Assembly: GCA_028282925.1 (NCBI GenBank)
Contig: JANQGV010000075.1
Location: forward strand, 1 to 39,418
Length of the DNA stretch: 39,418 bases
Source: Thermodesulfobacteriota bacterium
Lineage (GTDB): Bacteria; Desulfobacterota; WTBG01; CAIYCZ01; CAIRTM01
Reading direction: 5' to 3'
Shown: piece by piece, positions 18,340 to 37,512 of the stretch
Position numbering within the stretch: the first letter of the stretch is position 1
How the letters are laid out: each line of letters starts with the position of its first letter
The notes under the pieces: model-generated
What the model was told of the DNA's origin: nothing
What the model saw: the letters and a program-made list of their open reading frames with translations, nothing else
The model's database searches: none
Program-made: the position numbers and the translations under genes

Positions 18340-19185
18340 ATGCCATTAGTCATTAACCACAACTTGATGGCCATGAATGCATCCCGTAACTTTACGACTG
18401 CATTCGACGCTCTCGCAGTTTCAACAGCCCGTCTTTCATCCGGTTTGAGAATCAACTCTTCAGCAGACGATGCTGCCGGCCTGGCAGTTAGTGAGCTCAT
18501 GCGTGCTGAAATCGCCGCCCTTAACCAGGGTGTTCGAAACGCCCGCGATGCCCAGAGTCTTCTGCAGACCGCTGACGGTGCTCTGGCTGTTATCGATGAA
18601 AAGCTCATTCGTATGAAAGAGCTTGCCGAACAGTCCGCAACGGGTACGTATACATCGTCCCAGCGTACAATCATGAACACCGAGTTCGGCCTTATGCGCA
18701 GTGAGATAACCCGAATAGCAAATGCTACCAAGTTTAACGGTGTTTACCTGTTGAACGGTAACCTCTCCGGAGCCGGAACCAACGGACTCAAGATCCACTT
18801 TGGTCCGACAAACTCCTCCGCAGAGGATTACTATTTTATTTCAATCAGCGACGCCCGCGGTTCTGCACTGGGTATCGATGCTGTCAGCATCGCCTCACAG
18901 TCCGGCGCCCAGGGAGCCCTGGTAACCCTTGACGCGGCTATTACCGCTAAAGATAATATCCGTGCCAACATTGGTAGTTATATCAACCGTCTCTCAAACA
19001 CTGTTTCGCAGTTGTCGATCCAGGCAGAGAACCTGCAGGCAGCGGAATCACGTATTCGTGACGCCGACATCGCCCTGGAAATGACCGACTTCGTAACAAA
19101 CCAGATCAAATCTCAGGCTGCTATCGCGATGCTTGCCCAGGCAAACATGCTGCCGCAGATGGCACTGACCCTGATCGGTGGTTAA
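18340..19185 (+). CDS. fliC: Flagellin
   Basis: The 281-residue protein is a short flagellin comprising only the conserved D0/D1 ends. The N-terminal landmarks are VINHNLMAMNASRNF, RLSSGLRINSSADDAAGLAV and SLLQTADGAL. The C-terminal landmarks are NRLSNTVSQLSIQAENLQAA, ESRIRDADIALEMTDF and LAQANMLPQMALTLIGG. The variable D2/D3 region is reduced to about 40 residues (145-185), rich in Ser, Asn and Thr, which offers few sites for O-glycosylation. It forms the filament after export through the flagellar type III system. A strong AAGGAGG precedes the ATG; a sigma-28-like promoter, a structured leader and a strong terminator surround the gene. It is the only flagellin here. Confidence 0.97.
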   Translation: MPLVINHNLMAMNASRNFTTAFDALAVSTARLSSGLRINSSADDAAGLAVSELMRAEIAALNQGVRNARDAQSLLQTADGALAVIDEKLIRMKELAEQSATGTYTSSQRTIMNTEFGLMRSEITRIANATKFNGVYLLNGNLSGAGTNGLKIHFGPTNSSAEDYYFISISDARGSALGIDAVSIASQSGAQGALVTLDAAITAKDNIRANIGSYINRLSNTVSQLSIQAENLQAAESRIRDADIALEMTDFVTNQIKSQAAIAMLAQANMLPQMALTLIGG

Positions 19186-21103: not shown

Positions 21104-21136
21104 CAACAACATTTACTATACGGGAGGATGCACATC

Positions 21137-21595
21137 GTGAATTACCAAAACAACGCCAACGCGAACACTTACAAAAACATGGAGGTTTCATCAAGCAACC
21201 GTCTCAAAATCATTGTGATGGTATACGATGCGGTAATTGCATCGCTTAAAGAAGCCATAGAGACCCATGGGCGCAACGATATGGTAAAACGCAACCAGTA
21301 TATCTCCCGGGCCCAGTTTATTATCCTGGAGCTGAACAGCGCCCTTGATATGCAGCGCGGCGAAGAAATCGCCGAAAACCTGCGTAAGATATACCACTTT
21401 CTCAACCGACACCTGGGCGATTTCCTCAATGACAACGATATCCGGAAAGTACGTGAATCATTGAAAATACTGGAAAGCATCAGGGAATCGTGGAAAGCCA
21501 TTGAGAAGGAAAACGAAACCGGCAGCCAGGGAGCGGCCGTATACCACAGCAGCCGGAATGACGCCCAGCCGACAATCAACACCCGGGTCGGATGA
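21137..21595 (+). CDS. fliS: Flagellin export chaperone FliS
   Basis: The 152-residue helical protein has the FliS core: NTYKNMEVSSSNRLKIIVMVYD, then AQFIILELNSALDMQRGEEI and LRKIYHFLNRHLGD. FliS binds the C-terminus of flagellin and prevents premature polymerisation before export. The GTG at 21137 is chosen because GGGAGG (21122-21127) stands 9 bases before it; the in-frame ATG at 21128 would abut that site. The first 10 residues and the Ser/Asn/Gln-rich C-terminal tail after about 125 are less conserved. It follows fliD in the usual order and is probably co-transcribed. Confidence 0.93.
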   Translation: MNYQNNANANTYKNMEVSSSNRLKIIVMVYDAVIASLKEAIETHGRNDMVKRNQYISRAQFIILELNSALDMQRGEEIAENLRKIYHFLNRHLGDFLNDNDIRKVRESLKILESIRESWKAIEKENETGSQGAAVYHSSRNDAQPTINTRVG

Positions 21596-22214: not shown

Positions 22215-22574
22215 CTAAAGTTTCTTATCTATAAACTTCGGGATATGGGACTTTTTAGCGTTGAATTTCCTGCGCAGCTTGCGCATTTTCTGGTATTTGT
22301 CGATGTCCTTGAGCAGTTCTTTTTTGTACCCTTCAAGGAGACCCCGCAATTCACAGTCTTTCTGCAGCATGTGCTCAATTTCACCGGCGGTCTTCTTACG
22401 GCTGTCGGTGTCAAGGTCCCTCTTGAAGATATTATTCTTTTCAAGGATCGCCCGGCGCTTTTCCAGGCATGAAGTGACCTTGGCAAGATTATTGACCCTC
22501 CCGGCCTGCAACGCCATGTCTGTAAGAAGGCACAACTCGTCTATATGATTTAAAGAGAAATCTTTTCTATTCAT
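22215..22574 (-). CDS. Small helical protein, FliT/FlgN-like flagellar chaperone candidate
   Basis: The 119-residue protein is almost entirely charged helix. LCLLTDMALQAGRVNNLAKVTSCLEKRRAILE resembles the helical pattern ending in a (K/E)R-ro-x-L motif found in FliT- and FlgN-type export chaperones. A very basic C-terminus follows (MRKLRRKFNAKKSHIP). Such chaperones bind FliD or hook-associated proteins and are usually encoded near fliD-fliS, as here. It is the last gene of the minus-strand island, 15 bases after the 205-residue hypothetical gene. Sequence identity to any named family could not be established by eye, so the role is inferred from size, helicity and position. Confidence 0.5.
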   Translation of the reverse strand: MNRKDFSLNHIDELCLLTDMALQAGRVNNLAKVTSCLEKRRAILEKNNIFKRDLDTDSRKKTAGEIEHMLQKDCELRGLLEGYKKELLKDIDKYQKMRKLRRKFNAKKSHIPKFIDKKL

Positions 22575-22589: not shown

Positions 22590-23207
22590 TTAATTGTTAT
22601 TGTATTCAGCCGATTTCGTTTCGAAAATAGCAATCCAGTTCGTCAGCATGGGTACAATTTCATACTCAATCAAGTCCGCCAGCAGGATCAAGTCGCCCTC
22701 TTCCTGGGTGGTTTTGATTTCGTCGATGATATTGATCAGCTTTGACCACTCATCCTGAACCGTGTGACCGTTATACTGTGTTCCCTCAAAATCCCAGTTG
22801 ATGGTGTTACGGGTCGTATCGATAAACTTGAACAGGTCTCTGAACGATTCAAGCAGGTTGATAAAATTTTCGAACGCCTCGGCCTCATCATACATTCTGA
22901 ACAGCTCGGCGGTCCTGTTGGCTGAATCGATGATGCGGGTAATCAGAACGCTGCTGTCCTTCAATGCCGCACCGGCAACCTGCTCGAGAGACACGGTCTT
23001 GATGTCGAGATCCATAACCCGCTCGAGACCTATATCACGCGCCTGACCCGGGTAGAGCTCTGAAAATTCATTGCCGTTCACAACAACCGTTCCCACGAGA
23101 TGATTTTCCGGTACGGCATTGTTTGCCAGTTGCACCAGCGCTTCCTCAAGATTGCCTGCGCTTGCGCATTGGCCGTTTACCATGTTTCCATTGATTGTAA
23201 TGTTCAT
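22590..23207 (-). CDS. Hypothetical protein of the flagellar glycosylation island
   Basis: I do not recognise this 205-residue protein. Residues 1-60 look beta-rich and open with MNITINGNMVNG, then a VVVNGNEF strand. The rest looks helical and acidic (FENFINLLESFRDLFKFIDT, LILLADLIEYEIVPML). There is no signal peptide or membrane segment. A strong AAAGGAGG lies just before the ATG, suggesting good translation. It sits between a GT9 gene and the FliT-like gene, so a chaperone or targeting role for flagellar export or glycosylation is possible, but this is only context. Confidence 0.7.
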   Translation of the reverse strand: MNITINGNMVNGQCASAGNLEEALVQLANNAVPENHLVGTVVVNGNEFSELYPGQARDIGLERVMDLDIKTVSLEQVAGAALKDSSVLITRIIDSANRTAELFRMYDEAEAFENFINLLESFRDLFKFIDTTRNTINWDFEGTQYNGHTVQDEWSKLINIIDEIKTTQEEGDLILLADLIEYEIVPMLTNWIAIFETKSAEYNNN

Positions 23208-23227: not shown

Positions 23228-24901
23228 CTATCTATTCATTAGTATAAATAATTGTTGTCCTATTGCTTCCAGTTCATTGATTCGTGAAACTAACACTTCA
23301 TATACCGTCCTGGTCTGAACGGCCATATCCGTAATGGAACCGCCTTCTATAATTTCCTTTTCGTACAGGAAAAGGTGTATCAAGTTTTTGAACGGTTTTA
23401 TCATTTCACCGGCACTTATGACTTCGTTGTCAAGGGCTTCAAGTTGTTGTGTAAGATGCTGGAGCCGTGAAATATTGGGAACCGGGTTCATTCCGGCGCT
23501 ATGCACCTCATCCGCCAGCACGCCTCCTTTTCCGGCTGTTCTTTTCAGTTGAATAAAGTGCGGTAATAATACGTTCCACTGTCGAAGCAGATCAGGCACA
23601 GTATGCGTATGGTAATGCTTCTGTATATAGCGGTATATGTTTACAACAGCCTTTTCTCCAAGCCTGGGAACACCATACCCGGCTTCTGTTTCCGCCAATA
23701 CCCGGGACCACAGTACACGCTGCATATACACACTGAGTTTTTCAAATGAAATATCCTTTTTTTGCAAAGGATAAAAATCCATGAATCCGTTGGCATCAAA
23801 CCCTGAGCAGAACAATTGCACGCCCTTTTGTGCACAAAGGGCCTCAGTGTGTGTTTCAGAATGCGCTCCTAAAAGTATTTCAAGTGCGGCAAATACACTA
23901 TCAGGTGTAATACGGTTTCTGCATTCAAGGCTGTGACACGATTCAGGAAATTCGCAGGGATGGCATGCCATGTCGGGTTCGATTGCCAGGTTCCCTTCGC
24001 CATAGGGACCTGTGGAAATACATTTTTCCTTACCGGTGTGCAAGCTCAGTACTTTGGTACCGCAGGCTGTTGCAACATGCATGGGCCCGCTGTCGTTGGT
24101 AATAAGCACATCAGTATAGTGCATAAATGCCGTCAGCTCCTCCGGGGTTGTTTTACCGAGCATACTGATGACCTGACCGGGATAGTTCTTGAGCAGATAT
24201 GTAGAAACGTTGTTTTCCGTTTCAACACCATACAATATCATTTTGCAGGATATGTTTTTTATAATACGTTCACACAGCTCTATAAAATGTTCTTGAGGCC
24301 ATCTTTTTTCGTCCGTGCTTCCACCGGTATGCAATCCCAATAAAAGAGTGCCTTCGTCTATCCCCTGATGCTGAAGCATGTTGGAAGCAAACTGATACGT
24401 TTCCTGTGATGCATTCAATTTTGGTACAATCAAGTGCTGATCCAGACCGGCCATTTTTGAGTATAAGTCGATTACATGCATGGGCAGCGTTTTCCAGTTG
24501 CGGGTTGTAGAAATGAAAAACTTAGTCCAGGCCGAAATGTTTTCATTCAACCTGTTGCCCTGCCCTGCCAGAAACGCTGATATGACACCTATATGATGGG
24601 GTGTAATGTTTATGACCTTATTGAAATTTCTCAGCCGCAATTTCCCAAAAAATTCCTTTAAGTAACTGTAGGTCTGTTCAATACCGGCCGGATTGTTATG
24701 CAGGTCTGTACATATCTGTTTAAAATCAAGTGTATAGTATTCGTCGATACCGGGCAGCAGGCTGCAAAGCTGCTCGCAGTTGTTGTTTACCAGAAGAGAT
24801 ACGCGGGATTCAGGATACACGGACTTCAATCCCTGCAGCATAGGTGTTGTCTGCACAATATCACCGAATCTGGTTAAATTAACCACGAGAATCGATTCCA
24901 T
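23228..24901 (-). CDS. Glycosyltransferase family 9 protein with C-terminal helical extension
   Basis: The 557-residue protein starts with a GT9 (ADP-heptose:LPS heptosyltransferase-like) domain: ILVVNLTRFGDIVQTTPML at the N-terminus, LGLHTGGSTDEKRWP at 188-202 and LITNDSGPMHVATACGT at 266-282. A four-cysteine motif C313-x2-C316-x5-C322-x4-C327 follows STGPYGE. About 215 further residues, mostly helical, have no recognised domain. GT9 enzymes transfer heptose-type sugars from nucleotide donors. Beside flagellar genes, with no LPS genes visible, flagellin glycan assembly is the likely role. Its ATG shares one base with the preceding stop (TAATG), implying coupling. The donor sugar is unknown. 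Confidence 0.85.
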   Translation of the reverse strand: MESILVVNLTRFGDIVQTTPMLQGLKSVYPESRVSLLVNNNCEQLCSLLPGIDEYYTLDFKQICTDLHNNPAGIEQTYSYLKEFFGKLRLRNFNKVINITPHHIGVISAFLAGQGNRLNENISAWTKFFISTTRNWKTLPMHVIDLYSKMAGLDQHLIVPKLNASQETYQFASNMLQHQGIDEGTLLLGLHTGGSTDEKRWPQEHFIELCERIIKNISCKMILYGVETENNVSTYLLKNYPGQVISMLGKTTPEELTAFMHYTDVLITNDSGPMHVATACGTKVLSLHTGKEKCISTGPYGEGNLAIEPDMACHPCEFPESCHSLECRNRITPDSVFAALEILLGAHSETHTEALCAQKGVQLFCSGFDANGFMDFYPLQKKDISFEKLSVYMQRVLWSRVLAETEAGYGVPRLGEKAVVNIYRYIQKHYHTHTVPDLLRQWNVLLPHFIQLKRTAGKGGVLADEVHSAGMNPVPNISRLQHLTQQLEALDNEVISAGEMIKPFKNLIHLFLYEKEIIEGGSITDMAVQTRTVYEVLVSRINELEAIGQQLFILMNR

Positions 24902-26748
24902 TACCTGTGTTCCTGAAGGAGCTGTTCATATTCCTTAATAAGCAAAAACAGGGCTTCCGGGTACTCGATGGGCCCCTGTTTGGCATGTATGGCAGCAGCC
25001 ACCGTATCAATATTCGGTGCCCCCTGTGTGCGCCGCAGGGCATCGGATAGTATGGAAGTTGTTTCCGGATGTTTGGTATAAAATGCTTCCACGTCGTGTA
25101 TTACCGGCGATGACGGGGCCGATTTCTGATAGAAGCAATCGGGTTTTCTTTGCTGTATAAAGGACAGCATGTGCTCCATACGATGTTTGTAGGTATGCTC
25201 CTGCATAACACGTTTTTTGGCACGCTGTGCAATGGCCAGACGTTCATCGTCATGGGTCAGGAAGTATTCAATTTTAGCCCGTAAATCTTCAAGGTCCTTA
25301 TACGTAATAATTTCCTCACCAACCGCAAAATGGCGGTTCAGGATGCTGCGCTCATCAACCAGTTGAAAAGCCCCGCACGATGCAAGCTCATAGGTCCGAG
25401 GGTTCACAAAATCGCCCTGTGGATTGACCCCTTCATGGGAGACCGAAGAGTGTAAATTTATATTTATTTTTGAAGCATTAAAAATCTTCACCGTATCGTC
25501 GGTTGATATCCTGGCGCCGCTTCTCTGTACGTGCTGCCACACAGGGGAACGCATATCCCATTCGTTCCCCCAGATCTTGAAATCAAAATCAAGCAGGCCG
25601 TGAAACATTTTTTGACGATTATAATAACCGGCACCCATAAAAGAAATATCACTGCCGAATTCCTGCATGTCTTCCTGGGAAAGATTGGTTTCATTATGCA
25701 CCCCTGGATCAGCGGCCATGGGGAGGTAACAGTAATTCTGCACGCCGATATCCCGCAGTTCATCAAAAAAGCGGTCATCCTGGATGGTAAAATAAAAATC
25801 ATACAGCGGTGCATACTGTTTCCAGTACGGCATGTATTTGTAATCTTCCACAAACCAGAAGGCAGTTGTAATATTCAATTCGTTGAGCCGTTGCAAAGCC
25901 TGGGGACTCAGCGGTGCCTGAGAAAGGGCAAGTACCATGTCCGGTGCATAATCAAGACAGGTGCCGACTACCATTTCAGAGATAAGGTGCAGGAACAGGT
26001 CATTTAAGACCCTGGTGCTGTTGGTGTCGATCTTCATGCCGAGAACCTTCTGAAAAGGCTCATTAAACATCGATGCATCTAAAAGCTGTACTTCATGACC
26101 GAGTTCTTTAAGAGCATCGGTACAGTAACGTGTAACCGGCAAAGAACCGCCATAAATGGGGGAAACAATCAGAATACGAATTTTCTTTTTGGAAACTGTC
26201 GAATCCAGACTTGTTGTATTTGAGGCTGAAGAACAATTTTCTTTTTCAGTCAATTGTTTGAACACGCTTTGATTCACTTTGACCGTCGGCTGATGGGCAA
26301 ACAACACTTCAGGTGCCCGCTGCAGCTCGCTCACATCACAGCAAATGGTTATGGCTTCAATCAGGCCGGCCATATCGATCTGTTCGAAGGCGCACCTCAG
26401 AACATCAAGGCGCGGTTCAAGTACGACGACCCTGTTTGGCAGTTCGGTAAATGGCCGCACATGGTATCCAAACCCGAGCCCGAAAATGCATACCGTATCT
26501 CCGGGCTGCACGCTCTGTTTCGCCAGATGCGCCTGCAAAAAAGATCGGCCCTCCTTTTCAGGGTCGTACAGGCTGTGCAGGCTGATCCTGTTTATTTTCA
26601 GAACCGGTAATCCGTTTTTAGACATAACAACCTGATATTCCTGTGAAACAGAAGCAGACAACACCTGTTCAGCAAGAACAGGGTTCTTTTTTTGAAGAGC
26701 GGCAATATTATGTTCGAAAACCGTTTTATTCATTACAGAAATACTCAT
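24901..26748 (-). CDS. Maf-N-like/CgeB-like glycosyltransferase fusion (copy 1)
   Basis: The 615-residue protein has an N-terminal Rossmann-like part (about 1-170) with VCIFGLGFGYHVRPF and VVVLEPRLDVLRCAF, resembling the N-terminal domain of flagellin-glycosylating Maf proteins. A GT-B-type CgeB/DUF3880-like glycosyltransferase follows: IRILIVSPIYGGSLPVTRYC, FWFVEDYKYMP, YLPMAADPGVH, NPRTYELASCGAFQLVDER and MQEHTYKHRMEHML. It is one of three such fusions in the island and directly abuts the GT9 gene before it. A role in flagellin glycosylation is inferred from the Maf-like part and location. Acceptor and donor are unknown. Confidence 0.78.
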   Translation of the reverse strand: MSISVMNKTVFEHNIAALQKKNPVLAEQVLSASVSQEYQVVMSKNGLPVLKINRISLHSLYDPEKEGRSFLQAHLAKQSVQPGDTVCIFGLGFGYHVRPFTELPNRVVVLEPRLDVLRCAFEQIDMAGLIEAITICCDVSELQRAPEVLFAHQPTVKVNQSVFKQLTEKENCSSASNTTSLDSTVSKKKIRILIVSPIYGGSLPVTRYCTDALKELGHEVQLLDASMFNEPFQKVLGMKIDTNSTRVLNDLFLHLISEMVVGTCLDYAPDMVLALSQAPLSPQALQRLNELNITTAFWFVEDYKYMPYWKQYAPLYDFYFTIQDDRFFDELRDIGVQNYCYLPMAADPGVHNETNLSQEDMQEFGSDISFMGAGYYNRQKMFHGLLDFDFKIWGNEWDMRSPVWQHVQRSGARISTDDTVKIFNASKININLHSSVSHEGVNPQGDFVNPRTYELASCGAFQLVDERSILNRHFAVGEEIITYKDLEDLRAKIEYFLTHDDERLAIAQRAKKRVMQEHTYKHRMEHMLSFIQQRKPDCFYQKSAPSSPVIHDVEAFYTKHPETTSILSDALRRTQGAPNIDTVAAAIHAKQGPIEYPEALFLLIKEYEQLLQEHR

Positions 26749-28299
26749 CTATTGCATTATCGCCTGTCTCAGCATACCGGTGCCTGCAGTAAGGCCGTTT
26801 ATAAAAGAAGTGCTTGCCCTCTGTTGAGCAGCCTTCCGGCAAAGGGCGCTTTCTTTCATATCATGATAACAGTTAAGCCAGGGGTGCCAGAAGCTGTTGG
26901 TCATATCAAGTCTGGCTGTTTCCGTGGCATATGGATTTGAATAATAGCTGTTCATAAGGGTCTCGGCCGACTCAATAGCCTGCAATACACCATCCAGCCC
27001 ATGTACATGCATTCCCTGCTCATAGCCGCATTTCCCGGCTGAATCAAAATCGCAATCATCAAGGAGTACCGTTCCCATGGTACGGTAGCAGGCGTTTTGT
27101 ACATCATCACATTCGTTTCTTAAACCGGCTTCGTGCTTAAACACAATGCCGAAATCATCAAAGTCTGATGACAGAATACGGCAGGTGCTGCTGAGTGGTT
27201 TTTTAAGCGAATGTCCAAAAAGAATATGCTCGGACACCATCATCACATCTTCAGGTATAATAGAGGTTTTACAGGCATAGCCTCTCCGGCAGTTCTGATC
27301 TTCTACACATGGGCTGCACTCATCGCTTCCCTGGATAATCCAGTGATTTTCTCCATAGGGACCGGTATGAAAAACATACGCCGGACCGAAGAAGAGAGCC
27401 AGGGTCCGGCAGTCTACGGCGGTAGCCATATGCATGGTGCCCGTATCGCCGGTGATCAGCAAATCGCTGCATTTCAGTACTGCAGCAAGTTCCTGGAGGG
27501 ATGTTTTATCGATGAAAGAATGAACCCTTGAAACCGATTGCGGACCAACGATACTCAAACCCCGTAAAAATTCCTGCTCCGTCGATCGATCTTCACCGGT
27601 GCCGAGCAGAAGAAGATGTATGTTTTTATACTGAAGCAACCTGTTCGCAAGCTCTACAAATGAGTCCACCGGCCATGTTCTCTGCGGGTGCCGTGATCCG
27701 AGTTGCAGTGCGATGCACATGCTGTCTTCAGGCATCAAGTGTACAAGTCTTTTAACCGTTTTTGCATGGCTGGCCGGGTTCACTGAAAAATATGTTTTTT
27801 TCGGGTGGTTGGCGGCGCGTCCGGCACAATAGTAAAAGTAATCCACCAGGTTAAAGGGTGCCAGACGGGCCTGGTCGAAAGTTGCATTAAAAAAAGAAAA
27901 CCATGGGTCTTTGGTAATGCTTCTGTCTGAATCGGCAAATCGATACCCGCGTACTGTTTCGGCCCGGGGAATGGAGCTAAGAGTGTTCGTCAATGCAGAA
28001 TAATTAAGGTTCACAAGTGTATCAAACACCTGCCCATGCAACTCACTGCAGGCATCATTAAGTACTTCATAGCGCTGCATCGTATCCTCGATTTCAAGCA
28101 TGCATCGCATAATTTTCCGTGAATCTATAGAGTAGCGGGTGTCCACATCGGGGCAGTGCCCGGCGGTTTCAACAACCCGTTCGTCGACAAGCACGCATAT
28201 TTCAGCTTCAGGGTGCTCCTTTTTTAATCCATGAAGCAACGGTGTTGTTTGCAGGAAATCACCCATACGGGCCATTTGTATTACCAGAATCCTATCCAT
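26749..28299 (-). CDS. Glycosyltransferase family 9 protein (second copy)
   Basis: The 516-residue protein is a diverged paralogue of the other GT9 protein. It has ILVIQMARMGDFLQTTPLLHG at the start, IALQLGSRHPQRTWP at 196-210 and LLITGDTGTMHMATAVD at 280-296. A four-cysteine motif C328-x2-C331-x5-C337-x5-C343 again follows HTGPYGE. The C-terminal region of about 165 residues has no recognised domain. It overlaps the upstream CgeB-like gene by 8 bases. The alternation Maf/CgeB-GT9-Maf/CgeB-GT9 suggests duplication of a two-gene unit. Likely a sugar transferase for the flagellar glycan; the sugar is unknown. Confidence 0.85.
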   Translation of the reverse strand: MDRILVIQMARMGDFLQTTPLLHGLKKEHPEAEICVLVDERVVETAGHCPDVDTRYSIDSRKIMRCMLEIEDTMQRYEVLNDACSELHGQVFDTLVNLNYSALTNTLSSIPRAETVRGYRFADSDRSITKDPWFSFFNATFDQARLAPFNLVDYFYYCAGRAANHPKKTYFSVNPASHAKTVKRLVHLMPEDSMCIALQLGSRHPQRTWPVDSFVELANRLLQYKNIHLLLLGTGEDRSTEQEFLRGLSIVGPQSVSRVHSFIDKTSLQELAAVLKCSDLLITGDTGTMHMATAVDCRTLALFFGPAYVFHTGPYGENHWIIQGSDECSPCVEDQNCRRGYACKTSIIPEDVMMVSEHILFGHSLKKPLSSTCRILSSDFDDFGIVFKHEAGLRNECDDVQNACYRTMGTVLLDDCDFDSAGKCGYEQGMHVHGLDGVLQAIESAETLMNSYYSNPYATETARLDMTNSFWHPWLNCYHDMKESALCRKAAQQRASTSFINGLTAGTGMLRQAIMQ

Positions 28300-30079
28300 A
28301 GATGCGGGCCATAAAGCTTGTTACTATTTGCAAGCGATGAATATACGTATGTTCATTCATAACCCGCTTGTACGCATTTGCAATAATACGCTCGCGGGCT
28401 GCATCATTTTCAAGATAATAGCGAACCAGCTCCGGTATTTCTTCCGGGTCTTTAAAGCACACTAGTTCTGAACCGATTTCAAAAGCATTTTCGAGTTGTT
28501 CGCGGTAATCGGTAAGAATAAAACCACCGCAAGCCGGTACGTCGAATACACGCTGGTTGAATCCCCGTTTCATCTGCGCACTGGTGGTATTGAAATTAAT
28601 GGTGCAGACATTATAAAAACCGGGCAGCTCGTCATAGTAGTTCAGCTCATCATGGATAACGGTTTGACCGTTTACAAGTGTATGCCAGCCGGGATCTCCA
28701 AAAATATGCGGCCTGAATGGATACAGTTTTTTAATACAGTCCAGACGATACTGCTGGGTAGCCATCCAGGTAACAGCCGGTTCAAAAGCTTTACGATGAG
28801 TATGCATGTACATTTCGTATAGCGCCCGCTGTGAAGGGCTTAAGGTAAGGGTGATATTCTCCAGCAATTTCTCGGCAGACAGGGAGTACTGGCCTGCAAT
28901 GGTGTACAAAAGATCGAGGGCTGTTTCGGAATCAGGTAATTCCTGAACACATTCAGTTATACTGTTTATCCAGGAACTGCCCACAAAGCCCACCTCACAC
29001 TGCAAATGGCGCACGGGGTTATCTGCCGAAGGTATTTTCCTGAATATGGTAGGGTCGGTTGCCAAAGGCAATGGGCAAATGTGCTCAAAACCCCGGTGCT
29101 TCATGTCGTTGATATAGTCGGTATCCCACATAAAAACACACAAGTAGGGCGAAACCTGTTTCTCAAAATCTTCAAGAATAAAAAGCGGGTTGTCGACAAA
29201 CCAGGATGCATACGGCATCTCAATGTCGTCAAAAAGTTGCGTTAGGATACCTTCACGATCAAAACCCAGGTGATTAACCGTTAAAATAAAATCGGGCTTA
29301 AAGGAGAGTATTTCATACAAGAGCTTTTCTATAACATTCCGGTCGCCGCCCTGTTTCAAATCGTCCTGCAAAATAATGGTTTTTGTGTTGTGCCCCAAAT
29401 GTTTGAGCGACTGGATTATTTCAGCCAGCAAATAGTACTTGCTGTGCAACACCAGGATGTTCAGTTGTTCCTGCTTGAACTTACGGTACCGGAGTTTTGC
29501 CATGGTGTCGGCTGAACCGATGTCCTGCAGTTGCCGCTGAACGGAATCATAAAACGAATTGTAGGCTCTGACGGTCGGCATGTGCGACAGTACTCTTAAT
29601 TGTTTCAAATTATGCTGCACCTGCAGGCGTGATATTGCATTAATCACCTCACTGCAACTGTTGCTGCAGATAAAAAAAACGTCCTGCCCGTTTGTTATTT
29701 CACGAATATCTCTTCTGTTAAACAGTTCGTGTAACAATCCTGCATTTTGTTCAACAACGATTACCGGCCCCTGAAATGTACCGGTTAACGCTGCAAGGTG
29801 ATATCCGAAACCAGCGCCCAGCACGACCGGCAACTCATTATGCCGGAGCGAAACGCCTTCGGCGAATGTACGTGCTTCGGCGACCGGGTTTACCGAGCTG
29901 TGCAGTGAAACCCACTTCCCGTTTTCAGACAGCACACGGGGTATTTCATGTCCGTCCTTTGCCGTTGCAACAGAAACCGTGCCTGCTGCCGCCGACGAAA
30001 GGATAGTTTCCAGTTGCGCCGGGACTATGCACGAGTGCAAAATTTCCAGATTTTCTTTAAGAATTCTGGCATTCGGCAT
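28292..30079 (-). CDS. Maf-N-like/CgeB-like glycosyltransferase fusion (copy 2)
   Basis: The 595-residue protein repeats the Maf-N plus CgeB-like architecture. ELPVVLGAGFGYHLAALTG and PVIVVEQNAGLLHELF form the Rossmann-like part. YASWFVDNPLFILEDFE, CPLPLATDPTIFR, FDVPACGGFILTDYREQ and VMNEHTYIHRLQ mark the GT part. The ATG at 30079 is chosen: AGGA stands 8 bases upstream, and it overlaps the TPR gene by only 23 bases, whereas the longer frame needs a TTG at 30106. It is followed by a GT9 gene with an 8-base overlap. The function is inferred as flagellin glycosylation. Confidence 0.78.
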   Translation of the reverse strand: MPNARILKENLEILHSCIVPAQLETILSSAAAGTVSVATAKDGHEIPRVLSENGKWVSLHSSVNPVAEARTFAEGVSLRHNELPVVLGAGFGYHLAALTGTFQGPVIVVEQNAGLLHELFNRRDIREITNGQDVFFICSNSCSEVINAISRLQVQHNLKQLRVLSHMPTVRAYNSFYDSVQRQLQDIGSADTMAKLRYRKFKQEQLNILVLHSKYYLLAEIIQSLKHLGHNTKTIILQDDLKQGGDRNVIEKLLYEILSFKPDFILTVNHLGFDREGILTQLFDDIEMPYASWFVDNPLFILEDFEKQVSPYLCVFMWDTDYINDMKHRGFEHICPLPLATDPTIFRKIPSADNPVRHLQCEVGFVGSSWINSITECVQELPDSETALDLLYTIAGQYSLSAEKLLENITLTLSPSQRALYEMYMHTHRKAFEPAVTWMATQQYRLDCIKKLYPFRPHIFGDPGWHTLVNGQTVIHDELNYYDELPGFYNVCTINFNTTSAQMKRGFNQRVFDVPACGGFILTDYREQLENAFEIGSELVCFKDPEEIPELVRYYLENDAARERIIANAYKRVMNEHTYIHRLQIVTSFMARIYG

Positions 30080-30674
30080 ATGTACATTCCTGGTGAACCT
30101 CTTCAAGTGCCCTCATGAGATCGTTTGCGTCAGGGTGTTCAGGCTCGAAAATAAATATTTTTTCCAGGCACTCACGGCATTCATGATATCTTTTTTGTTT
30201 GAAATATGTTCCTGCCAGGCAATACAAAATTTTCATATTTCCGGGATACAGATCCAGGTATTTATTCAGGTATGTAACGGCCACTTCAAGCTCGCCGAGA
30301 GCATAGGCACTTTTCATTAAGCCCATCAGGGTTGTCAGACTTGTGGGATTAATGTCCATCGATTTCTGATATGTTTTCAAGCCTTCAGGAACATCACCCG
30401 AATTGGTAATGGCCATAGCGAGACCGGTCAGGGCTTTATCATTGTTGGGGTTTTTATCGATGGCCTTGTTGAAATAGTATTTTGCTTCATCCAGGTTGTT
30501 TTTTTGCATAACAGCCACACCAAGGCCGATAAAGGGTCGCTCACTTTGAGGTTCGAACCTGCAAGCTGTTTCAAAATGCACGATAGCCTCATCGATGTTG
30601 CCGATCTGGGTATAGCATTCGCCGAGTTCCTGATAGATTTCAAAAGGTACATTTTCGGACATATTTTGTTCCAT
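30057..30674 (-). CDS. TPR-repeat protein
   Basis: The 205-residue protein is made of about five tetratricopeptide repeats, for example YQELGECYTQIGNIDEAIVHF, ALTGLAMAITNSGDVPEGLKTY and LYCLAGTYFKQKRYHECREC. There is no signal peptide. The ATG at 30674 is favoured by an AAGGGGAG site 7 bases upstream; an in-frame ATG at 30704 overlaps the preceding gene and has no such site. TPR proteins in glycosylation loci often serve as scaffolds or acceptor-recognition subunits. It sits between the four-domain transferase and a CgeB-like gene and overlaps the latter. Its exact role is unknown. Confidence 0.85.
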   Translation of the reverse strand: MEQNMSENVPFEIYQELGECYTQIGNIDEAIVHFETACRFEPQSERPFIGLGVAVMQKNNLDEAKYYFNKAIDKNPNNDKALTGLAMAITNSGDVPEGLKTYQKSMDINPTSLTTLMGLMKSAYALGELEVAVTYLNKYLDLYPGNMKILYCLAGTYFKQKRYHECRECLEKIFIFEPEHPDANDLMRALEEVHQECTYAECQNS

Positions 30675-30696
30675 GGGTCTTCTCCCCTTAAAATAG

Positions 30697-33672
30697 TTAT
30701 GCAATTTTTCTTTTTGCCTGATTCAGCAAATCAATGGCCCCATTAAAATTTTTTTCTTTTTTCATCAAACGGGCTTCTGCAAGAAGATCCGCAGCACTCG
30801 GTCCGGGATCCGCCTGTCCCTGTGCATTTTCAAACAGCATGCTTGTTTCTTCTTTTGTTATCATATATTTTGCCTGTTCAAGGACCTCGATAACCTTATG
30901 GTATTCCGCATCTTTTTTATGCTGCTTCGCTGTTGCAATAAAATTCTGCAGTTCATTTTCAAAAAGCTTTTGTTCCAGTGGTGCGTTGGTAATGCGACTT
31001 ACAGGATGTGTACATAACAGACTTTTAGCCTTTTCCAGCAACTCTACGGCCCTGTGAAAGTCTTTTTCCTTCTTATATGTAAGGGCTTCTGCAAGAAGTG
31101 CCGCTGCTGTATTCGGCATTGCGGTTGGAACTTCTTCTGTATGCTTCTCAGCAGGATATGTATTTTCAGTAAGTACGGGTTCGTGCAGTTTTTCACAATG
31201 GGGTTTCAGAGGTTCCCTTTCAATTCCGACATCTTCAGGTTCAATAGCAAACACTTCAAGTGCATGCCACATTGTGAATCCTGCCTGAACGACTTTTTGT
31301 CCAAGTTGTACAAATGCCTGATCAACGTCGACATTCTCCGGCAATAATCCTGTTTTTTGGAAAATATCCCTGGATATCATAATACACGGGCCGCTGATGT
31401 GATCGCTTGCGAGATCATTACCCATGAGACAATAGTTAAAAAACTCCTGAATACCGTGAAGACCGGCTGGAATTTTCCCGCTCTCATCAAGGTCCAGTAT
31501 CTGCCGGTACGGTTCCCTGCTGGACAGGGCTTTTACCGCACCTGCATCAGGATGAAACAAAAAATAGTTGTACATCCACTGCAACCAGCGGTCGGGAAGT
31601 GCAATGCGCGGTTTAAAACAGACCAGCATGCTGCCCCGGGAACATTGAAATGCCGTGTTTAAAGCACCGGAAGTTACGCTCGGCACATCGATCCAGTCGG
31701 CGATACTTTGAAGGGAGCCGCTACAGTCAAACGGACGCGGTCCGATACAGATTATTTCTATGGACACCCCTTTATTCAGAGAGGTAATCATATCAACAGC
31801 GTGCTCCACCTCTACCAGTGAAGGTGCCCGGTCCCATGGAATAATCACGCTGAAATCAACGTTTTTCAGCCTGGTCTGCTCTCCGGAGTGTGCAAGCTTC
31901 ATTATTTCATCGGCTGCCCGTTTGGCGCAGTCGCCGTCGACGGCACAGTTCAGCATGTCGGCATACTTCCTGCGCTTGGCGCTGTATTCCTCCGGGTCAA
32001 GCAGCGACAGCTTTACCGCCAGCTTCATTTCTTCAACGGTTGATACTTCAATTGCCGCATCACGCACTGTATGCTCGATATCACTGGGGTCATAATGAAT
32101 ATACTGTTTCATCAGCGGGTTATTGAAAAGGACCACCGGTTTATCAAGGAGCATGAATTCAACGTAGGCCGAAGAAACATCACTGATCATCACATCTGCA
32201 CACACCATTGCATGGTGATAATCTTCATTGTCCACCAGCACAACATTTTCATTGGCTTCGGCGCAGTGTTCATAAAGCCGTACCCATTCATCGCCGGTCA
32301 TGCCGTGCAGCTTGATAAGCACGGTTGTTGAAGCATCGGTTATTTCAGCTATTCGATCTTTTACACAGGGAATGGCGCTCAGATCTTCATTAAAGGTCGG
32401 AGCGAAAAGCACAATCGTATGTTCCGGATCAACACCATACTTTGTTTTGAAATTATCGATTTCGTGTTTGGTGCAACGGTACTGCACGTCGGATTTAATA
32501 AACCCGGTAACGGCAATGGGAGTGTATACATTTTTTTGCAGTTCCTGTTTATGCCACTCTCCCGGTACACATATTAAATCTGCATGATTTTCCCTGCGGA
32601 CGATGGGCTTGTCGGTATAGTAAAAACCCTTGCTGATCAAACCATGCCCCACAGTTACAATCTTTTTACAATGGCGGACTTCATAGAATGTTGAATCCGC
32701 CACTACGCATATATCGGCCTCGAAATCTGATGCCGTTGGGTAAAAAGTTGTTTTGTGCTTGAGCCTGCGTATCTCATCCGGCGCTATGCCGACACCGGGT
32801 TGTCCGCGTTCCGCTTTTATGTAGGGCGGAGACGAAAAGGCCAGTTCAGCATCGTAGTGCTGTGCTATATAGTCATGTACGGGTTCCAGAAAGGGAACAT
32901 GTAAATTACGTTCGACATAAAAAAGAATCCTGGGACGATGTCCCATTTCGGCCTGGTCGATGGCCCGAGCTATTGTGTTTTTGGCGTCGATAAAATCCTC
33001 TGGGAAATCAATTTCAATACAGGGCAGATCAGTGATATCAACCGCAGTCAGTTGAACATCTTCGGTAAGATAATCAAGGGCTGCCTCAAAATAACGCTCA
33101 TTGCCGCCGGGTTCGTCATGTACCCGTTGCAGGGCACGAGCAAACGATTCGCACATAGTGGCCGAAAATTTTGCAATACCGATAAACTCTCCGTAGGTTG
33201 TTGCCGGATCATACTGCTTGCCGATGCGCTGAATTTTCGTATCGTCGAGCACTACTTTTACTTCCTCGTCGCCACACTGCTTGCGGATAACAGCCAGGGC
33301 GTTTTCTTTATGAGCGTAAAAGAGCCTGCGGGTCAACTCCTGTGGGAATAGGACATCGGCATTCATGTACATGAAATCATCATTCATTTCATGCCGAGCG
33401 AGCCACAGTGAAAAAGCGGTGTTGGTAGTATCGAATTCCCGGTTTTCAATAAAGGTAAAGATGATATCTGTATATCGCCGGGTATGTTCGATGATGACCT
33501 CTTTTTCAAAGCCCACTACCATCACAATTTCGGTAATACCAAGTGCCCGAACCGATTCGATCTGGTAATCGAGCAGTGTTTTACCCCCGAAGGAAAGCAT
33601 GCACTTTGGAAGGTTGTTCGAGTATTCAGCCAACCGTCTCCCCCGTCCTGCTGCCAGTATAATTGCTTTCAT
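30697..33672 (-). CDS. Four-part nucleotidyltransferase / CDP-glycerol-phosphotransferase-like / GT2-like / helical-repeat protein
   Basis: The 991-residue protein joins parts rarely seen together. Residues 1-245 are a LicC/inositol-phosphate-cytidylyltransferase-like domain (AIILAAGRGRRL, PKCMLSFGGKTLL, ENREFDTTNTAFSLWLA, NADVLF). Residues about 247-595 resemble CDP-glycerol glycerophosphotransferases (GHGLISKGFYY at 342-352, FAPTFNED, IKLHG, CADVMISDVSSAYVEFMLLDKPVV). Residues about 605-840 are GT2-like (DFSVIIPWDRAPSLVEVEHA, ISGPCIMISRDIFQKTG). From about 880, two TPR-like repeats occur (LLAEALTYKKEKDFHRAVELL, LLAEARLMKKEKNFNGAIDLL). The first two domains could activate and transfer an alcohol phosphate. 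It lies 14 bases after gpsA. The substrate is unproven. Confidence 0.85.
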   Translation of the reverse strand: MKAIILAAGRGRRLAEYSNNLPKCMLSFGGKTLLDYQIESVRALGITEIVMVVGFEKEVIIEHTRRYTDIIFTFIENREFDTTNTAFSLWLARHEMNDDFMYMNADVLFPQELTRRLFYAHKENALAVIRKQCGDEEVKVVLDDTKIQRIGKQYDPATTYGEFIGIAKFSATMCESFARALQRVHDEPGGNERYFEAALDYLTEDVQLTAVDITDLPCIEIDFPEDFIDAKNTIARAIDQAEMGHRPRILFYVERNLHVPFLEPVHDYIAQHYDAELAFSSPPYIKAERGQPGVGIAPDEIRRLKHKTTFYPTASDFEADICVVADSTFYEVRHCKKIVTVGHGLISKGFYYTDKPIVRRENHADLICVPGEWHKQELQKNVYTPIAVTGFIKSDVQYRCTKHEIDNFKTKYGVDPEHTIVLFAPTFNEDLSAIPCVKDRIAEITDASTTVLIKLHGMTGDEWVRLYEHCAEANENVVLVDNEDYHHAMVCADVMISDVSSAYVEFMLLDKPVVLFNNPLMKQYIHYDPSDIEHTVRDAAIEVSTVEEMKLAVKLSLLDPEEYSAKRRKYADMLNCAVDGDCAKRAADEIMKLAHSGEQTRLKNVDFSVIIPWDRAPSLVEVEHAVDMITSLNKGVSIEIICIGPRPFDCSGSLQSIADWIDVPSVTSGALNTAFQCSRGSMLVCFKPRIALPDRWLQWMYNYFLFHPDAGAVKALSSREPYRQILDLDESGKIPAGLHGIQEFFNYCLMGNDLASDHISGPCIMISRDIFQKTGLLPENVDVDQAFVQLGQKVVQAGFTMWHALEVFAIEPEDVGIEREPLKPHCEKLHEPVLTENTYPAEKHTEEVPTAMPNTAAALLAEALTYKKEKDFHRAVELLEKAKSLLCTHPVSRITNAPLEQKLFENELQNFIATAKQHKKDAEYHKVIEVLEQAKYMITKEETSMLFENAQGQADPGPSAADLLAEARLMKKEKNFNGAIDLLNQAKRKIA

Positions 33673-33686
33673 GTACGCCCTCGTCC

Positions 33687-34664
33687 TTAATGATTCTTAT
33701 ACTGTGTTAAACAATTAATAAACGTGTGCGGTAAATGACCGTTCGGCTCGAAAATTATCTTAGCGATGGCGGCAAAAAGCGGAATCGGCATATTCAAATC
33801 GTCCAGGTCGGAAATGGTTTTCGCCATTTGTACTCCCTCCACAACCATACCGACCTCCTGCAATGCAGCTTCGCGGTCCATTCCTTTACCCAGCATGTAC
33901 CCGAATCTCCTGTTTCGGCTGTCTTTACTCAGGCATGTCGCTATAAGATCCCCCAGGCCGGCAATGCCGTAAACCGTCTTTGAGGAAATCCCCAGAAACC
34001 CTGAAATGTCGGCGAATTCCTGCAGGCCGTACGTAACAATCAGGCTCATAAAATTGTTGCCCAGATCAAGACCGTCCGCTATGCCGACCCCGATTGCAAT
34101 AATACCTTTAAGCGAAGCACACAGTTCAACACCCTTGACATCACTGCTGATCTCAAAAGCCAGGTGTTTGTTTCTGATGGTTTTTGCAACCTTTGAAACG
34201 GCACCCAGGTCCTTCGATGCCAGAACGGCTTTAGCCGGTTTACCCTCGGCTATTTCCCGGGCAATGTTCGGTCCGGTCATGATCACAACCGGCGTTTTGG
34301 GCAACTCGTCCTGAATAACCTCACTCATGGTTTTAAAAGATGTATGCTCGAACCCCTTGGAGACACACATAACCGTCTGACCGTTTATAACGCCTGAGAG
34401 TTCTCTGGAAATGCTGCGCACCTGGTGCGATGGCACGGCAATCACCAGTAAATCATCATGCCCGATGGATTCACCGAATTTGGGCAGCGCATGTATTCCG
34501 TCCGGCAAAGGTATGCCTTTCAGATACGTACTGTTCTCCCTGCAGGTATTTATGGCGCCGGCTTTTGCATCGGAGGTGGTCCATAAAGAAACCTCTTGAT
34601 TTTCCGAAAAAATACAGGAAAGCGTCGTTCCCCAATTACCGGCACCAATTACAATTGTCTTCAT
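33687..34664 (-). CDS. gpsA: Glycerol-3-phosphate dehydrogenase [NAD(P)+]
   Basis: The 325-residue protein is GpsA. Its N-terminal dinucleotide fold has VIGAGNWGTTLS; family motifs are LVIAVPSHQVR, VSKGFEH, VIMTGPNIARE, the catalytic-lysine region SSDVKGVELCASLKGIIAIG and GLGDLIATC. It reduces dihydroxyacetone phosphate to sn-glycerol-3-phosphate, the precursor for phospholipids and for CDP-glycerol. It is usually a housekeeping gene. Here it heads a sigma-54-like transcription unit and directly precedes the CDP-glycerol-phosphotransferase-like gene, suggesting dedicated precursor supply. Whether it is the only gpsA in the genome is unknown. All family motifs seem intact. Confidence 0.95.
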   Translation of the reverse strand: MKTIVIGAGNWGTTLSCIFSENQEVSLWTTSDAKAGAINTCRENSTYLKGIPLPDGIHALPKFGESIGHDDLLVIAVPSHQVRSISRELSGVINGQTVMCVSKGFEHTSFKTMSEVIQDELPKTPVVIMTGPNIAREIAEGKPAKAVLASKDLGAVSKVAKTIRNKHLAFEISSDVKGVELCASLKGIIAIGVGIADGLDLGNNFMSLIVTYGLQEFADISGFLGISSKTVYGIAGLGDLIATCLSKDSRNRRFGYMLGKGMDREAALQEVGMVVEGVQMAKTISDLDDLNMPIPLFAAIAKIIFEPNGHLPHTFINCLTQYKNH

Positions 34665-34710: not shown

Positions 34711-34726
34711 TGCAATTATTGTGCCG
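34711..34726 (-). promoter_or_regulatory. Sigma-54-like promoter for gpsA and the downstream glycosylation genes
   Basis: On the minus strand CGGC-ACAATAA-TTGCA (34726-34711) matches TGGCAC-N5-TTGCA with exact spacing and only the first T changed among the core positions. The predicted start near 34700 leaves about 36 nt to the gpsA ATG. Confidence 0.6.
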
Positions 34727-35728: not shown

Positions 35729-37393
35729 CTACTGAGCAACAGCTTCAAGAATTCTGTCGGCTCGATTGCCGATTCCGTGTTTACGTACAATAATTTCCCG
35801 CAACGCCCGGCCGTATTCCTTGCGGAGCTCTTTATCCCGCGAGAGAAACAGCGCTTTTTCTCTCAGGTCCCGGAAATCATCAAACAATAGTTCTTCAAAG
35901 CCGTTGCCGAACAGCTCGTTCCAGCCGGATAGTCGCTCTCCGAGCACGATTCGATTGCAGGCCCCTACATCGAAAATCCGCTGATTAGGGTAATGACGCA
36001 TTTGTAAATGCGTTAATGATATATGCACCGCGTCGGACCGGTAGACCTGCGGCAGCTCACGGTAATAATCGACATATCCCCGGACTTCGACCCCCTCAGG
36101 AAGCAGACCTTCCCATCCGTCACCGTACACAATCGGGCGCAGGTCTGCAAGGGCGCTCAGGGCCTGTACCCGGTAAGCGGTATTTGCTCGATAAACAGCG
36201 TAGGCCGGCAGGCGCTGATACCCGACCGGGGTAAAAGTGTGCGCATCCAGGCCGAGTGCATCAATAGCATTGTCCACCTCACTCTGCGTCGGAACGCACC
36301 GTTTTGAAACAATCGATTCCTGCAGATGTGCCGCAACGGCAGCGGCCTGCCGGTCTTGCAGAAGCGTTACAAAATAGGCCTCTTCATTGCCGAAAGAGGG
36401 ACTGCCGACGTATACGATACGTCCTGCCAGTTCAGGGCAGCCCTCACCGGGCGTGAAGGTGTTGAGATTCGTTGCCAGGGGCAACAGGCCCGTCTCTGAA
36501 AAACCGAGTCGGTTACAGGTTTCAACCCCCGCGCTGTCCCAGCACAGTCCGATTCTTTTTTGGGTTGCATGCATTTCATGCTCACTGATCACAAAACCCG
36601 GATCATCAACAAACCAGCTGATCCAGGGAATTCCGGCATGCAGGCAGGCACTGGCCATCAGACCGTTTTTATCAGACCCCCGGTTATTGATTGAAAAGAC
36701 AAAATCCGGGGTTGTATCATGCAACGTGTCCCACACTTCGGCAGGTGAGAGGTTCCTATTCGCGAATGAATCGGCGCTAACAATGCGGAGTCCTTTGTCC
36801 CTGAAAGCTGCATGAATATCGGGCTCCACAATATGACCTGAAAGGGGAAACAAAACGGTTTTGCCGTTTGTACCTTCTCTCTTCACATACGGTTTTTGCA
36901 GACCCTGCACAAACATGCTTAATGGACCGAACAGTTCCGGAAACGCCTTTGTCTCCCTGGGGTGTTGAACAATGCTGCACTGCTCTTCAGTAAAAAAGGT
37001 TCTCACTGCTTCAAGAACGTTCGGCGTAACGGTCTGGGCCACAATAAAAGAAATATCACACGGCCGGACGCTGTTTTCCTCAAGGAGCTGCCTGTTACAC
37101 TCGACAAGAAACGGGCTTCCGGTAATCACCATAATACGCCTTACACCTGATTTCACAATTTCAGGCACCAGATATCCCGATCCCGCCCCAAGCAGCAGCG
37201 CAGACCCCTTCCCTTGCAGCCTGCTTCGCCCGGCCAGTTTCAGCATTTCCTGAACAGGTTCATACGGAGAATCGATCGCCCGCCAGCCACGGTGAGTCCT
37301 GATTGAAACAAACCGGGTACTTTGATCCGGCACACATTCTCTTTTGTGTTGTTCTTTATACTTTTTAGATGTAAAATCGTTTACTTTTATCAT
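35729..37393 (-). CDS. Maf-N-like/CgeB-like glycosyltransferase fusion (copy 3)
   Basis: The protein has the same plan as the two other island copies. GSALLLGAGSGYLVPEIV and IMVITGSPFLVECNRQLLE form the Rossmann-like part. PWISWFVDDPGFVISEHE, GLLPLATNLNTFT, PIVYGDGWEGLLP, NQRIFDVGACNRIVLGE and VRKHGIGNRADRILE mark the transferase. The ATG at 37393 (554 residues) is chosen over a GTG at 37462, because that GTG overlaps the sigma-54-like element and would lie upstream of its predicted start site. It is the first gene of the minus-strand island. The N-terminal half is more diverged than in the other copies. Confidence 0.78.
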   Translation of the reverse strand: MIKVNDFTSKKYKEQHKRECVPDQSTRFVSIRTHRGWRAIDSPYEPVQEMLKLAGRSRLQGKGSALLLGAGSGYLVPEIVKSGVRRIMVITGSPFLVECNRQLLEENSVRPCDISFIVAQTVTPNVLEAVRTFFTEEQCSIVQHPRETKAFPELFGPLSMFVQGLQKPYVKREGTNGKTVLFPLSGHIVEPDIHAAFRDKGLRIVSADSFANRNLSPAEVWDTLHDTTPDFVFSINNRGSDKNGLMASACLHAGIPWISWFVDDPGFVISEHEMHATQKRIGLCWDSAGVETCNRLGFSETGLLPLATNLNTFTPGEGCPELAGRIVYVGSPSFGNEEAYFVTLLQDRQAAAVAAHLQESIVSKRCVPTQSEVDNAIDALGLDAHTFTPVGYQRLPAYAVYRANTAYRVQALSALADLRPIVYGDGWEGLLPEGVEVRGYVDYYRELPQVYRSDAVHISLTHLQMRHYPNQRIFDVGACNRIVLGERLSGWNELFGNGFEELLFDDFRDLREKALFLSRDKELRKEYGRALREIIVRKHGIGNRADRILEAVAQ

Positions 37394-37445
37394 TCGACGC
37401 AAACGCACCTCGCGATAAGACCTTGTGTATACGGTACGTAATAAA

Positions 37446-37461
37446 CGCAAATTGCATGCCA
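37446..37461 (-). promoter_or_regulatory. Sigma-54-like promoter for the glycosylation island
   Basis: On the minus strand TGGC-ATGCAAT-TTGCG (37461-37446) has exact -24/-12 spacing and intact GG and GC; the final base differs from the consensus A/T. The predicted start near 37436 leaves about 43 nt to the ATG at 37393. Confidence 0.55.
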
Positions 37462-37512
37462 CATATTAAAACATGTAATTACAGATAGTTGTATGTTTCA
37501 GGGAGAAAGGAA

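Follow-up and report, generated by a model that had tools for sequence, protein, structure and literature searches.

What role does a second gene for a glycerol-3-phosphate (G3P) dehydrogenase play beside the flagellin gene of a Thermodesulfobacteriota bacterium, and what is the large fusion protein encoded directly after it? The sequence-only reading of the window, a DNA stretch of 39,418 nucleotides, proposed that an activated alcohol phosphate is made here and placed on the flagellin glycan. Our analysis supports this proposal, within which we infer the identities of the alcohol and the acceptor. Most likely, this dedicated gene set produces glycerol phosphate in activated form and adds it to sugars of the flagellum. 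Phosphate-linked decorations of flagellin are known from Clostridioides difficile and Pseudomonas aeruginosa, and the one proposed here is most likely a new version of them.

The two genes lie on the minus strand. The dehydrogenase gene, gpsA2, spans 33687–34664 and encodes 325 residues. The gene for the 991-residue fusion protein, FUS991, spans 30697–33672 and follows after a spacer of 14 bases (33673–33686). Both reading frames and the spacer are exactly as first read. The next gene on the minus strand encodes a TPR protein (30057–30704), assigned by TPR families, which overlaps the end of FUS991 by 8 bases and adjoins the FUS gene in the relative G003 too. It is sequentially followed by a CgeB-like glycosyltransferase (28292–30106; Glyco_trans_1_2 and DUF3880 profiles; kept in G002 and G003), a GT9-family glycosyltransferase (26749–28299; PF01075), a Maf N-terminal domain joined to a CgeB-like glycosyltransferase (24901–26748; PF20157, 5.6e-7; PF13524, 3.5e-39), another GT9-family enzyme (23228–24901; PF01075), a hypothetical protein of 205 residues with no Pfam family (22590–23207), and, as the last gene of the operon, a FliT-like flagellar chaperone (22215–22574; PF05400, E = 0.0027, below the cut-off; syntenic in G003). 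Of the Maf domains, the Maf-N/CgeB protein has Maf_flag10_N only, and its catalytic part is CgeB-like and not the Maf catalytic domain. The 205-residue protein is kept in flagellin islands, with homologs beside fliC in G003, G002, and G011. On the plus strand lie fliC (18340–19185; PF00669/PF00700), encoding flagellin, the proposed acceptor, and fliD and fliS (19367–21595; family profiles and gene order). The profiles confirm that the pair continues into Maf-N/CgeB-like and GT9 genes beside fliC-fliD-fliS. Two of the island proteins scanned gave no family match.

The pair was also thought to have its own sigma-54-like promoter. The candidate site, CGGCACAATAATTGC (GG-N10-GC; 34712–34726, minus strand), lies 61 bases before the gpsA2 start and is the sole zero-mismatch match of its pattern in the window. 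Base arithmetic predicts about 0.3 perfect matches for the window, so the match by itself is no proof and a footprint was needed. G003 has the block CGGCAYANTAATTGC at −62, and G004, a genome that keeps the promoter and FUS and has no gpsA2, has it at −72, immediately ahead of the FUS gene. The site is conserved at −61/−62/−72 in three genera, in agreement with a promoter of its own for the pair.

GpsA2 scores 291 bits against NF000942 (cut-off 257). A second, housekeeping gpsA is located elsewhere in the genome, at C101, making gpsA2 a dedicated paralog of an NAD(P)-dependent glycerol-3-phosphate dehydrogenase. The housekeeping enzyme could already supply G3P. The gpsA2 clade is separated from other GpsA by a gap in bit score (>550 versus ≤226). 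K120, K204, D260, T264, R269, and N270 of the catalytic set are kept in all six clade members aligned, including the first-shell residues K120, K204, R269, and N270. GpsA2 thus shares with GpsA the family and the phosphate- and carbonyl-binding residues, but is a distinct, operon-linked paralog in which position 205 is Gly (6/6) rather than Asn (27/27 canonical GpsA). The substituted position adjoins the catalytic lysine K204, and the clade also carries a Tyr-to-Glu change at 171.

Because the Asn205-to-Gly change is clade-wide and may mean a differing substrate, a related polyol is conceivable as the product. GpsA2 would then reduce another phosphoketone resembling dihydroxyacetone phosphate (DHAP), and FUS991 would make another CDP-polyol or phospho-alcohol and transfer it to flagellin. 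The flagellin systems of C. difficile and P. aeruginosa use threonine, and substrates of COG1213 enzymes are diverse, comprising sugar, choline, glutamine, and glycerate phosphates (PMC12275187). Nevertheless, the phosphate-binding R269 and N270 and the carbonyl-side K120, K204, and D260 are all kept, and in human GPDH Asn205, which positions K204, belongs to the second shell (PMC12874384). The occurrence of FUS without gpsA2 in G004 is also easier to explain if the substrate is the common G3P. We regard another alcohol as unlikely, though it is the strongest of the competing explanations, and favor glycerol with modest confidence.

FUS991 begins with a LicC/COG1213-like cytidylyltransferase domain (residues 1–235; 32968–33672, minus strand), as the sequence-only reading had claimed. 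The domain matches NTP_transf_3 (2e-14, residues 3–132), and LicC (1jyk) is the best PDB sequence match of FUS991 (1.7e-14). The AAGxGxRL...PK motif and the aspartates of NADVL and EIDFPED are present in the alignment with 1jyk and in the A4 consensus. The domain fits the COG1213/LicC cytidylyltransferases and is predicted to use CTP. Its gpsA2-linked copies form one clade with a support of 97/95.

The following TagF-like CDP-alcohol:acceptor phosphotransferase domain (residues 248–595; 31888–32931, minus strand) bears out the second domain claim. PF04464 (Glyphos_transf) matches residues 332–591 with 1e-19 and 71.2 bits, against a gathering score of 22.1. The proposal had depended on both a nucleotidyltransferase and a CDP-glycerol-transferase match, and both were found. 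The active-site motifs HG...K, H, and SDxSS are represented by the invariant residues H343, K348, H456, and S497-D498-S500-S501.

In the C-terminal half of FUS991, residues 605–810 (31243–31860, minus strand) had been read as a GT2-like domain. The fold stands, but an active enzyme is unlikely. The region has no Pfam match, and profile–profile comparison with true GT2 domains by hhalign gives a probability of 80% (E = 1.4e-5, 189 columns). The DxD motif is absent from all five sequences compared, where the position reads KPRI, QPGT, KSGT, ESGL, or VGDM. The domain is therefore probably catalytically dead and provides no obvious polymerase. The missing DxD likewise weakens FUS991 as a bifunctional glycosyltransferase-polymerase. 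Residues 843–991 (30700–31146, minus strand) were described as TPR-like repeats, a description that holds through a weak ANAPC3 match (3e-4, below the cut-off) and helices in a low-confidence model. In G002, the TPR-like C terminus of FUS is fused to the next TPR gene. The AlphaFold model, built from an eight-row alignment, has a mean pLDDT of 56. Its GT2/TPR half was of too low quality, and Foldseek matches of the model were considered for the N-terminal domain alone.

FUS991 orthologs occur in G003, G004, G112, G165, and G461. In a sample of 395 genomes of the phylum, gpsA2 is present in four and the Glyphos-GT2 part of FUS in five, with an overlap of four. In G112 and G461, gpsA2 is followed by the LicC and TagF parts as two individual, neighboring genes, and the fusion therefore joins steps of one pathway. 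G004, lacking gpsA2, and G441, which has gpsA2 and in which no FUS was found, break the pairing. Other FUS matches in a wider set of contigs (L003–L006) are LicC- or TagF-like genes with no gpsA2 match.

Might the two genes be neighbors by chance, gpsA2 being a spare gene for lipid synthesis and FUS991 making an unrelated CDP-choline or phosphonate conjugate? The reaction of GpsA2 is of a housekeeping type, and LicC and PntC are both close neighbors of the N-terminal domain in sequence and structure. However, gpsA2 adjoins FUS991 or its LicC/TagF parts in five genomes of two families (G000, G003, G112, G165, and G461), and within the sample of 395 it is confined to genomes with FUS991 relatives. 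No choline kinase or phosphonate gene was found among the island proteins scanned, and we consider chance adjacency very improbable. A LicC-like domain serving choline or phosphonate was rejected, as no kinase, PEP mutase, or transaminase turned up in the island.

A further explanation places the phosphoglycerol or polyol phosphate on LPS or capsule as a general surface polysaccharide; FUS991 would be a TagF-like capsule enzyme and the flagellin genes accidental neighbors. The solved PF04464 relatives are TarL and Cps3D, and HS1.09 is a large multidomain TagF-like capsule enzyme (PMC11924219). The UDP-galactopyranose mutase gene glf adjoins gpsA2 in G461 of the second family, and by sequence similarity also in G112 and G441; this neighborhood could point to a general surface glycan. 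Against this stands the linkage to flagella. In both G000 and G003, the genes share one operon with the FliT-like gene, next to fliC, and the entire island is syntenic in G003. In the family of the window, FUS991 is present in 4/4 flagellin-positive genomes and 0/5 flagellin-negative ones, so that the cluster tracks flagellated genomes; the contig of G002 ends inside the FUS gene and carries its C terminus. Paralogous, non-fused LicC/TagF pairs occur in the flagellin-negative G001 and G007 as well. In the second family, gpsA2, LicC-like, and TagF-like genes lie beside another type of flagellin (FlbT/FlaF). In G461, about 10 kb separate the gpsA2-LicC-TagF genes from flagellin-FlbT-FlaF, and G165 has the same arrangement beside flagellin; the flagellins of G112 lie at a distance of about 98 kb. 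With two unrelated flagellin contexts and a GT2-like domain lacking DxD, a role in surface polysaccharide appears quite improbable.

We have good confidence that a CDP-activated phospho-alcohol is placed on the flagellar filament. In the proposed pathway, a sigma-54-controlled operon would build and finish the flagellin glycan, its first two genes providing the phospho-alcohol branch. GpsA2 would reduce DHAP to sn-G3P, and the LicC-like domain would combine G3P with CTP to give CDP-glycerol. The TagF-like domain would then transfer phosphoglycerol to a flagellin-bound sugar, releasing CMP. The acceptor sugar would be put on flagellin beforehand by the Maf-N/CgeB and GT9 enzymes. Binding of the glycoprotein acceptor probably falls to the GT2-like and TPR parts of FUS991 together with the neighboring TPR protein. 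We infer a flagellin glycan as the acceptor and a phosphodiester as the product. The explanation as a whole, phosphoglycerol on the flagellin glycan, is somewhat favored.

To our knowledge, CDP-glycerol synthases are of the TagD type. The four strong CTP_transf_like proteins of the genome resemble CoaD, NadD (two), and RfaE/HldE by eye, and thus no TagD is evident. Counting against glycerol, no COG1213 enzyme using glycerol-3-phosphate in vivo was found in the literature searched. A phosphoglycerol modification of flagellin, which the proposal predicts, did not appear in the papers searched. The chances are about even that the locus encodes a dedicated CDP-glycerol pathway under flagellar control, which caps flagellin glycans with phosphoglycerol. 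On this reading, the pathway would include a G3P dehydrogenase of its own and the first CDP-glycerol synthase of the COG1213 rather than the TagD type, and it would have arisen or spread in no fewer than two families, whose flagellins differ in type. If so, a new family of CDP-glycerol synthases is predicted, and teichoic-acid-like chemistry would in effect operate on the flagellar filament. Phosphate-linked flagellin caps would be modular, the LicC-like and TagF-like pair being loaded with threonine or glycerol by a swapped supply gene. As a genomic rule, such systems could be recognized by a gpsA paralog whose catalytic Lys is followed by Gly.

Several known systems share parts of this arrangement. 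Teichoic acid synthesis by TagD/TagF and the Gram-negative TagF-like capsule polymerases Cps3D and HS1.09 have in common with it a CDP-glycerol-type donor and a PF04464 transferase. They make a polymer, however, whereas a flagellin cap is proposed here, and in the teichoic acid route CDP-glycerol comes from TagD (COG0615) rather than a COG1213-like domain. CpgD of Caulobacter, a COG1213 CTP:phosphoglycerate cytidylyltransferase, makes CDP-glycerate (PMC12275187). It shares the fold and a three-carbon phosphate substrate, but uses glycerate, not glycerol, and serves a sphingolipid.

Among known systems, those that modify flagellin with phosphothreonine in C. difficile (CD0240–0244) and P. aeruginosa (PA1088–1091) come closest. 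In C. difficile type A, the LicC-like nucleotidyltransferase CD0242 and the TagF-like phosphotransferase CD0244 act on flagellin (PMC10714395). This pair also lies beside flagellar genes, and its substituent is phosphodiester-linked to a flagellin-bound sugar, as is proposed here. However, the two activities are separate in C. difficile and fused in FUS991, and the CgeB, GT9, and Maf-N transferases of the island distinguish it from the type A pathway. The C. difficile substituent is N-methylthreonine, made via a ThrH-like enzyme and a methyltransferase; a G3P dehydrogenase paralog takes that place here, and no HAD or methyltransferase family was found among the island proteins tested, the ThrH-like and N-methyltransferase steps being absent. 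The b-type system of P. aeruginosa shares with the present one a Gram-negative flagellin and LicC-like and TagF-like enzymes: PA1090 is LicC-like, and PA1091 fuses a GT2 with a TagF-like phosphotransferase (PMC11833859). The GT2 of PA1091 is an active enzyme (FgtA), with the nucleotidyltransferase as a protein of its own, whereas FUS991 fuses nucleotidyltransferase and phosphotransferase and its GT2-like part has no DxD. The alcohol is threonine in P. aeruginosa and is proposed to be glycerol here. The system would work like the phosphothreonine flagellin modification of these two bacteria, but is no member of it.

The gene gpsA2 (33687-34664, minus strand), a divergent second copy of the glycerol-3-phosphate dehydrogenase gene, is followed after 14 bases by FUS991 (30697-33672, minus strand), which encodes a 991-residue fusion protein; the sequence-only reading had placed both frames exactly. 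Residues 3-132 match NTP_transf_3 (2e-14), and LicC, the CTP:phosphocholine cytidylyltransferase, ranks first among PDB sequences, bearing out the proposed LicC-like nucleotidyltransferase. The proposed CDP-glycerol-phosphotransferase-like domain is equally evident: residues 332-591 match PF04464, CDP-glycerol glycerophosphotransferase (1e-19), and a profile of the middle part recovers TarL and the TagF-like capsule polymerase Cps3D. The claimed GT2-like domain holds as a fold (hhalign against genuine GT2 domains: probability 80, E 1.4e-5), but has no Pfam match. Because the DxD motif is absent from the expected position in all five homologs inspected, this part is taken to have kept the fold and lost glycosyl transfer. 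The C-terminal repeats, also called TPR-like, are tentatively so. TagF-like domains that share about 33-41% identity with the one in FUS991 occur in giant proteins of the window's genome (L044, G000:C235, 1761-7766, 2001 aa) and of G003 (L045, G003:C56, 9560-13999, 1479 aa); the former also has several glycosyltransferase domains, and the latter has two TagF-like domains.

The operon runs on one strand in the order gpsA2, FUS991, TPR protein, CgeB, GT9, Maf-N/CgeB, GT9, 205-aa unknown and FliT-like (E 0.0027, under the cut-off), with overlaps or gaps of at most 20 bases. It converges on fliC-fliD-fliS, continuing through the Maf-N/CgeB-like and GT9 genes as predicted. The predicted sigma-54-like promoter is CGGCACAATAATTGC, 61 bases upstream of gpsA2 and the sole zero-mismatch match to its pattern within the window. 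G003 and G004, both of the window's family, carry the same block at -62 and -72, respectively; in G004 it lies immediately upstream of FUS991, because gpsA2 is missing there. A second sigma-54-like site, TGGCATGCAATTTGC (37447-37461, minus strand), lies within the start annotated for the CgeB-like ORF 35729-37462, which probably begins farther downstream, near 37393 (MIKVNDF...); in G004 the ortholog (L040:12583) is preceded by TGGCATGGGATTTGC. The 205-aa protein (22590-23207, minus strand) has no Pfam family, is conserved in G002, G003 and the more distant G011, where it adjoins flagellin genes, and is a candidate unknown flagellin-glycosylation factor. The N terminus of CheA (7930-11088, minus strand, 1052 aa) appears to hold several repeated HPt-like segments.

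Within the window's family, G003 has the entire island in identical order as far as fliC. Flagellin is present in the window's genome, G002, G003 and G004, and was not found in G001 or G005-G008. FUS991 follows the same division: it is present in the window's genome, G003 and G004, its C-terminal part lies at a truncated contig end in G002, and it was not found in any of the five flagellin-negative genomes (4/4 versus 0/5, two-by-two p = 1/126, among related genomes of which G001 is only 76% complete). This is the opposite of conservation confined to genomes without flagella. A separate LicC-like/TagF-like paralog pair, elsewhere in genomes of the family, also occurs in flagellin-negative G001 and G007; therefore, the flagellar link belongs specifically to the fused version.

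In another family of the phylum, G112, G461 and G165 have gpsA2 followed by LicC-like and TagF-like/GT2-like sequences, fused in G165 but two separate genes in both G112 and G461. The gpsA2 of each of the latter two is 54-55% identical to the window's copy. G461 encodes a flagellin together with FlbT and FlaF roughly 10 kb away from this set, G165 has the same arrangement beside a flagellin, and the closest flagellin in G112 is about 98 kb off. FlbT and FlaF are usually associated with alphaproteobacteria. The flagellin-FlbT-FlaF genes of G461 adjoin glycosyltransferases including an OGT-like GT41, and the flagellins noted in genomes of another family of the phylum lie at L111 (5328-7736) and L103 (11048-13420). 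Across a sample of 395 phylum genomes, the gpsA2 clade scores >550 bits against <=226 for every other GpsA. It occurs in four genomes, all among the five with the Glyphos-GT2 part of FUS991 (hypergeometric p ~5e-9, relatedness ignored), and the gpsA2-linked LicC-like domains form a single clade (support 97/95). At L110 (G441:C18, 2564-3535), gpsA2 adjoins a UDP-galactopyranose-mutase-like gene; LicC/TagF genes were not found in that genome, which either lost them in assembly or puts gpsA2 to another use.

GpsA2 would reduce DHAP to G3P, the LicC-like domain would convert G3P and CTP to CDP-glycerol, and the TagF-like domain would place phosphoglycerol on a flagellin sugar. The sequence-only reading of this route is largely upheld, with flagellin the likely acceptor and glycerol the somewhat favored alcohol. 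No TagD is evident in the window's genome, where the four strong CTP_transf_like proteins resemble CoaD, two NadD-like proteins and RfaE/HldE, judged by eye on general knowledge of these families. That a COG1213 enzyme can use a three-carbon phosphate has a precedent in CpgD (PMC12275187). All six GpsA2 proteins retain the GPDH first-shell residues K120, K204, R269 and N270 and the second-shell D260 and T264, but have Gly at position 205, which is Asn in 27/27 canonical enzymes. In human GPDH, second-shell N205 positions K204 (PMC12874384). GpsA2 thus probably acts on a phosphorylated ketone, for which DHAP is the simplest candidate, but with a changed pocket. A normal gpsA is also present in the window's genome; if the GpsA2 product is ordinary G3P, it is easy to see how G004 could have lost gpsA2.

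C. difficile CD0242/CD0244 and P. aeruginosa PA1090/PA1091 act on flagellin; loss of a supply or activation gene leaves the core sugar alone, and flagellin is unglycosylated when the fused PA1091 is lost (PMC10714395, PMC11833859). The phosphodiester product was measured, and CDP-threonine chemistry is the authors' proposal (PMC10714395, PMC11833859). Because the threonine-supply genes are absent from the window's system, it is not a member of the phosphothreonine modifications. It would nevertheless work alike, and by analogy these systems offer strong precedent for the activation and transfer steps on flagellin.
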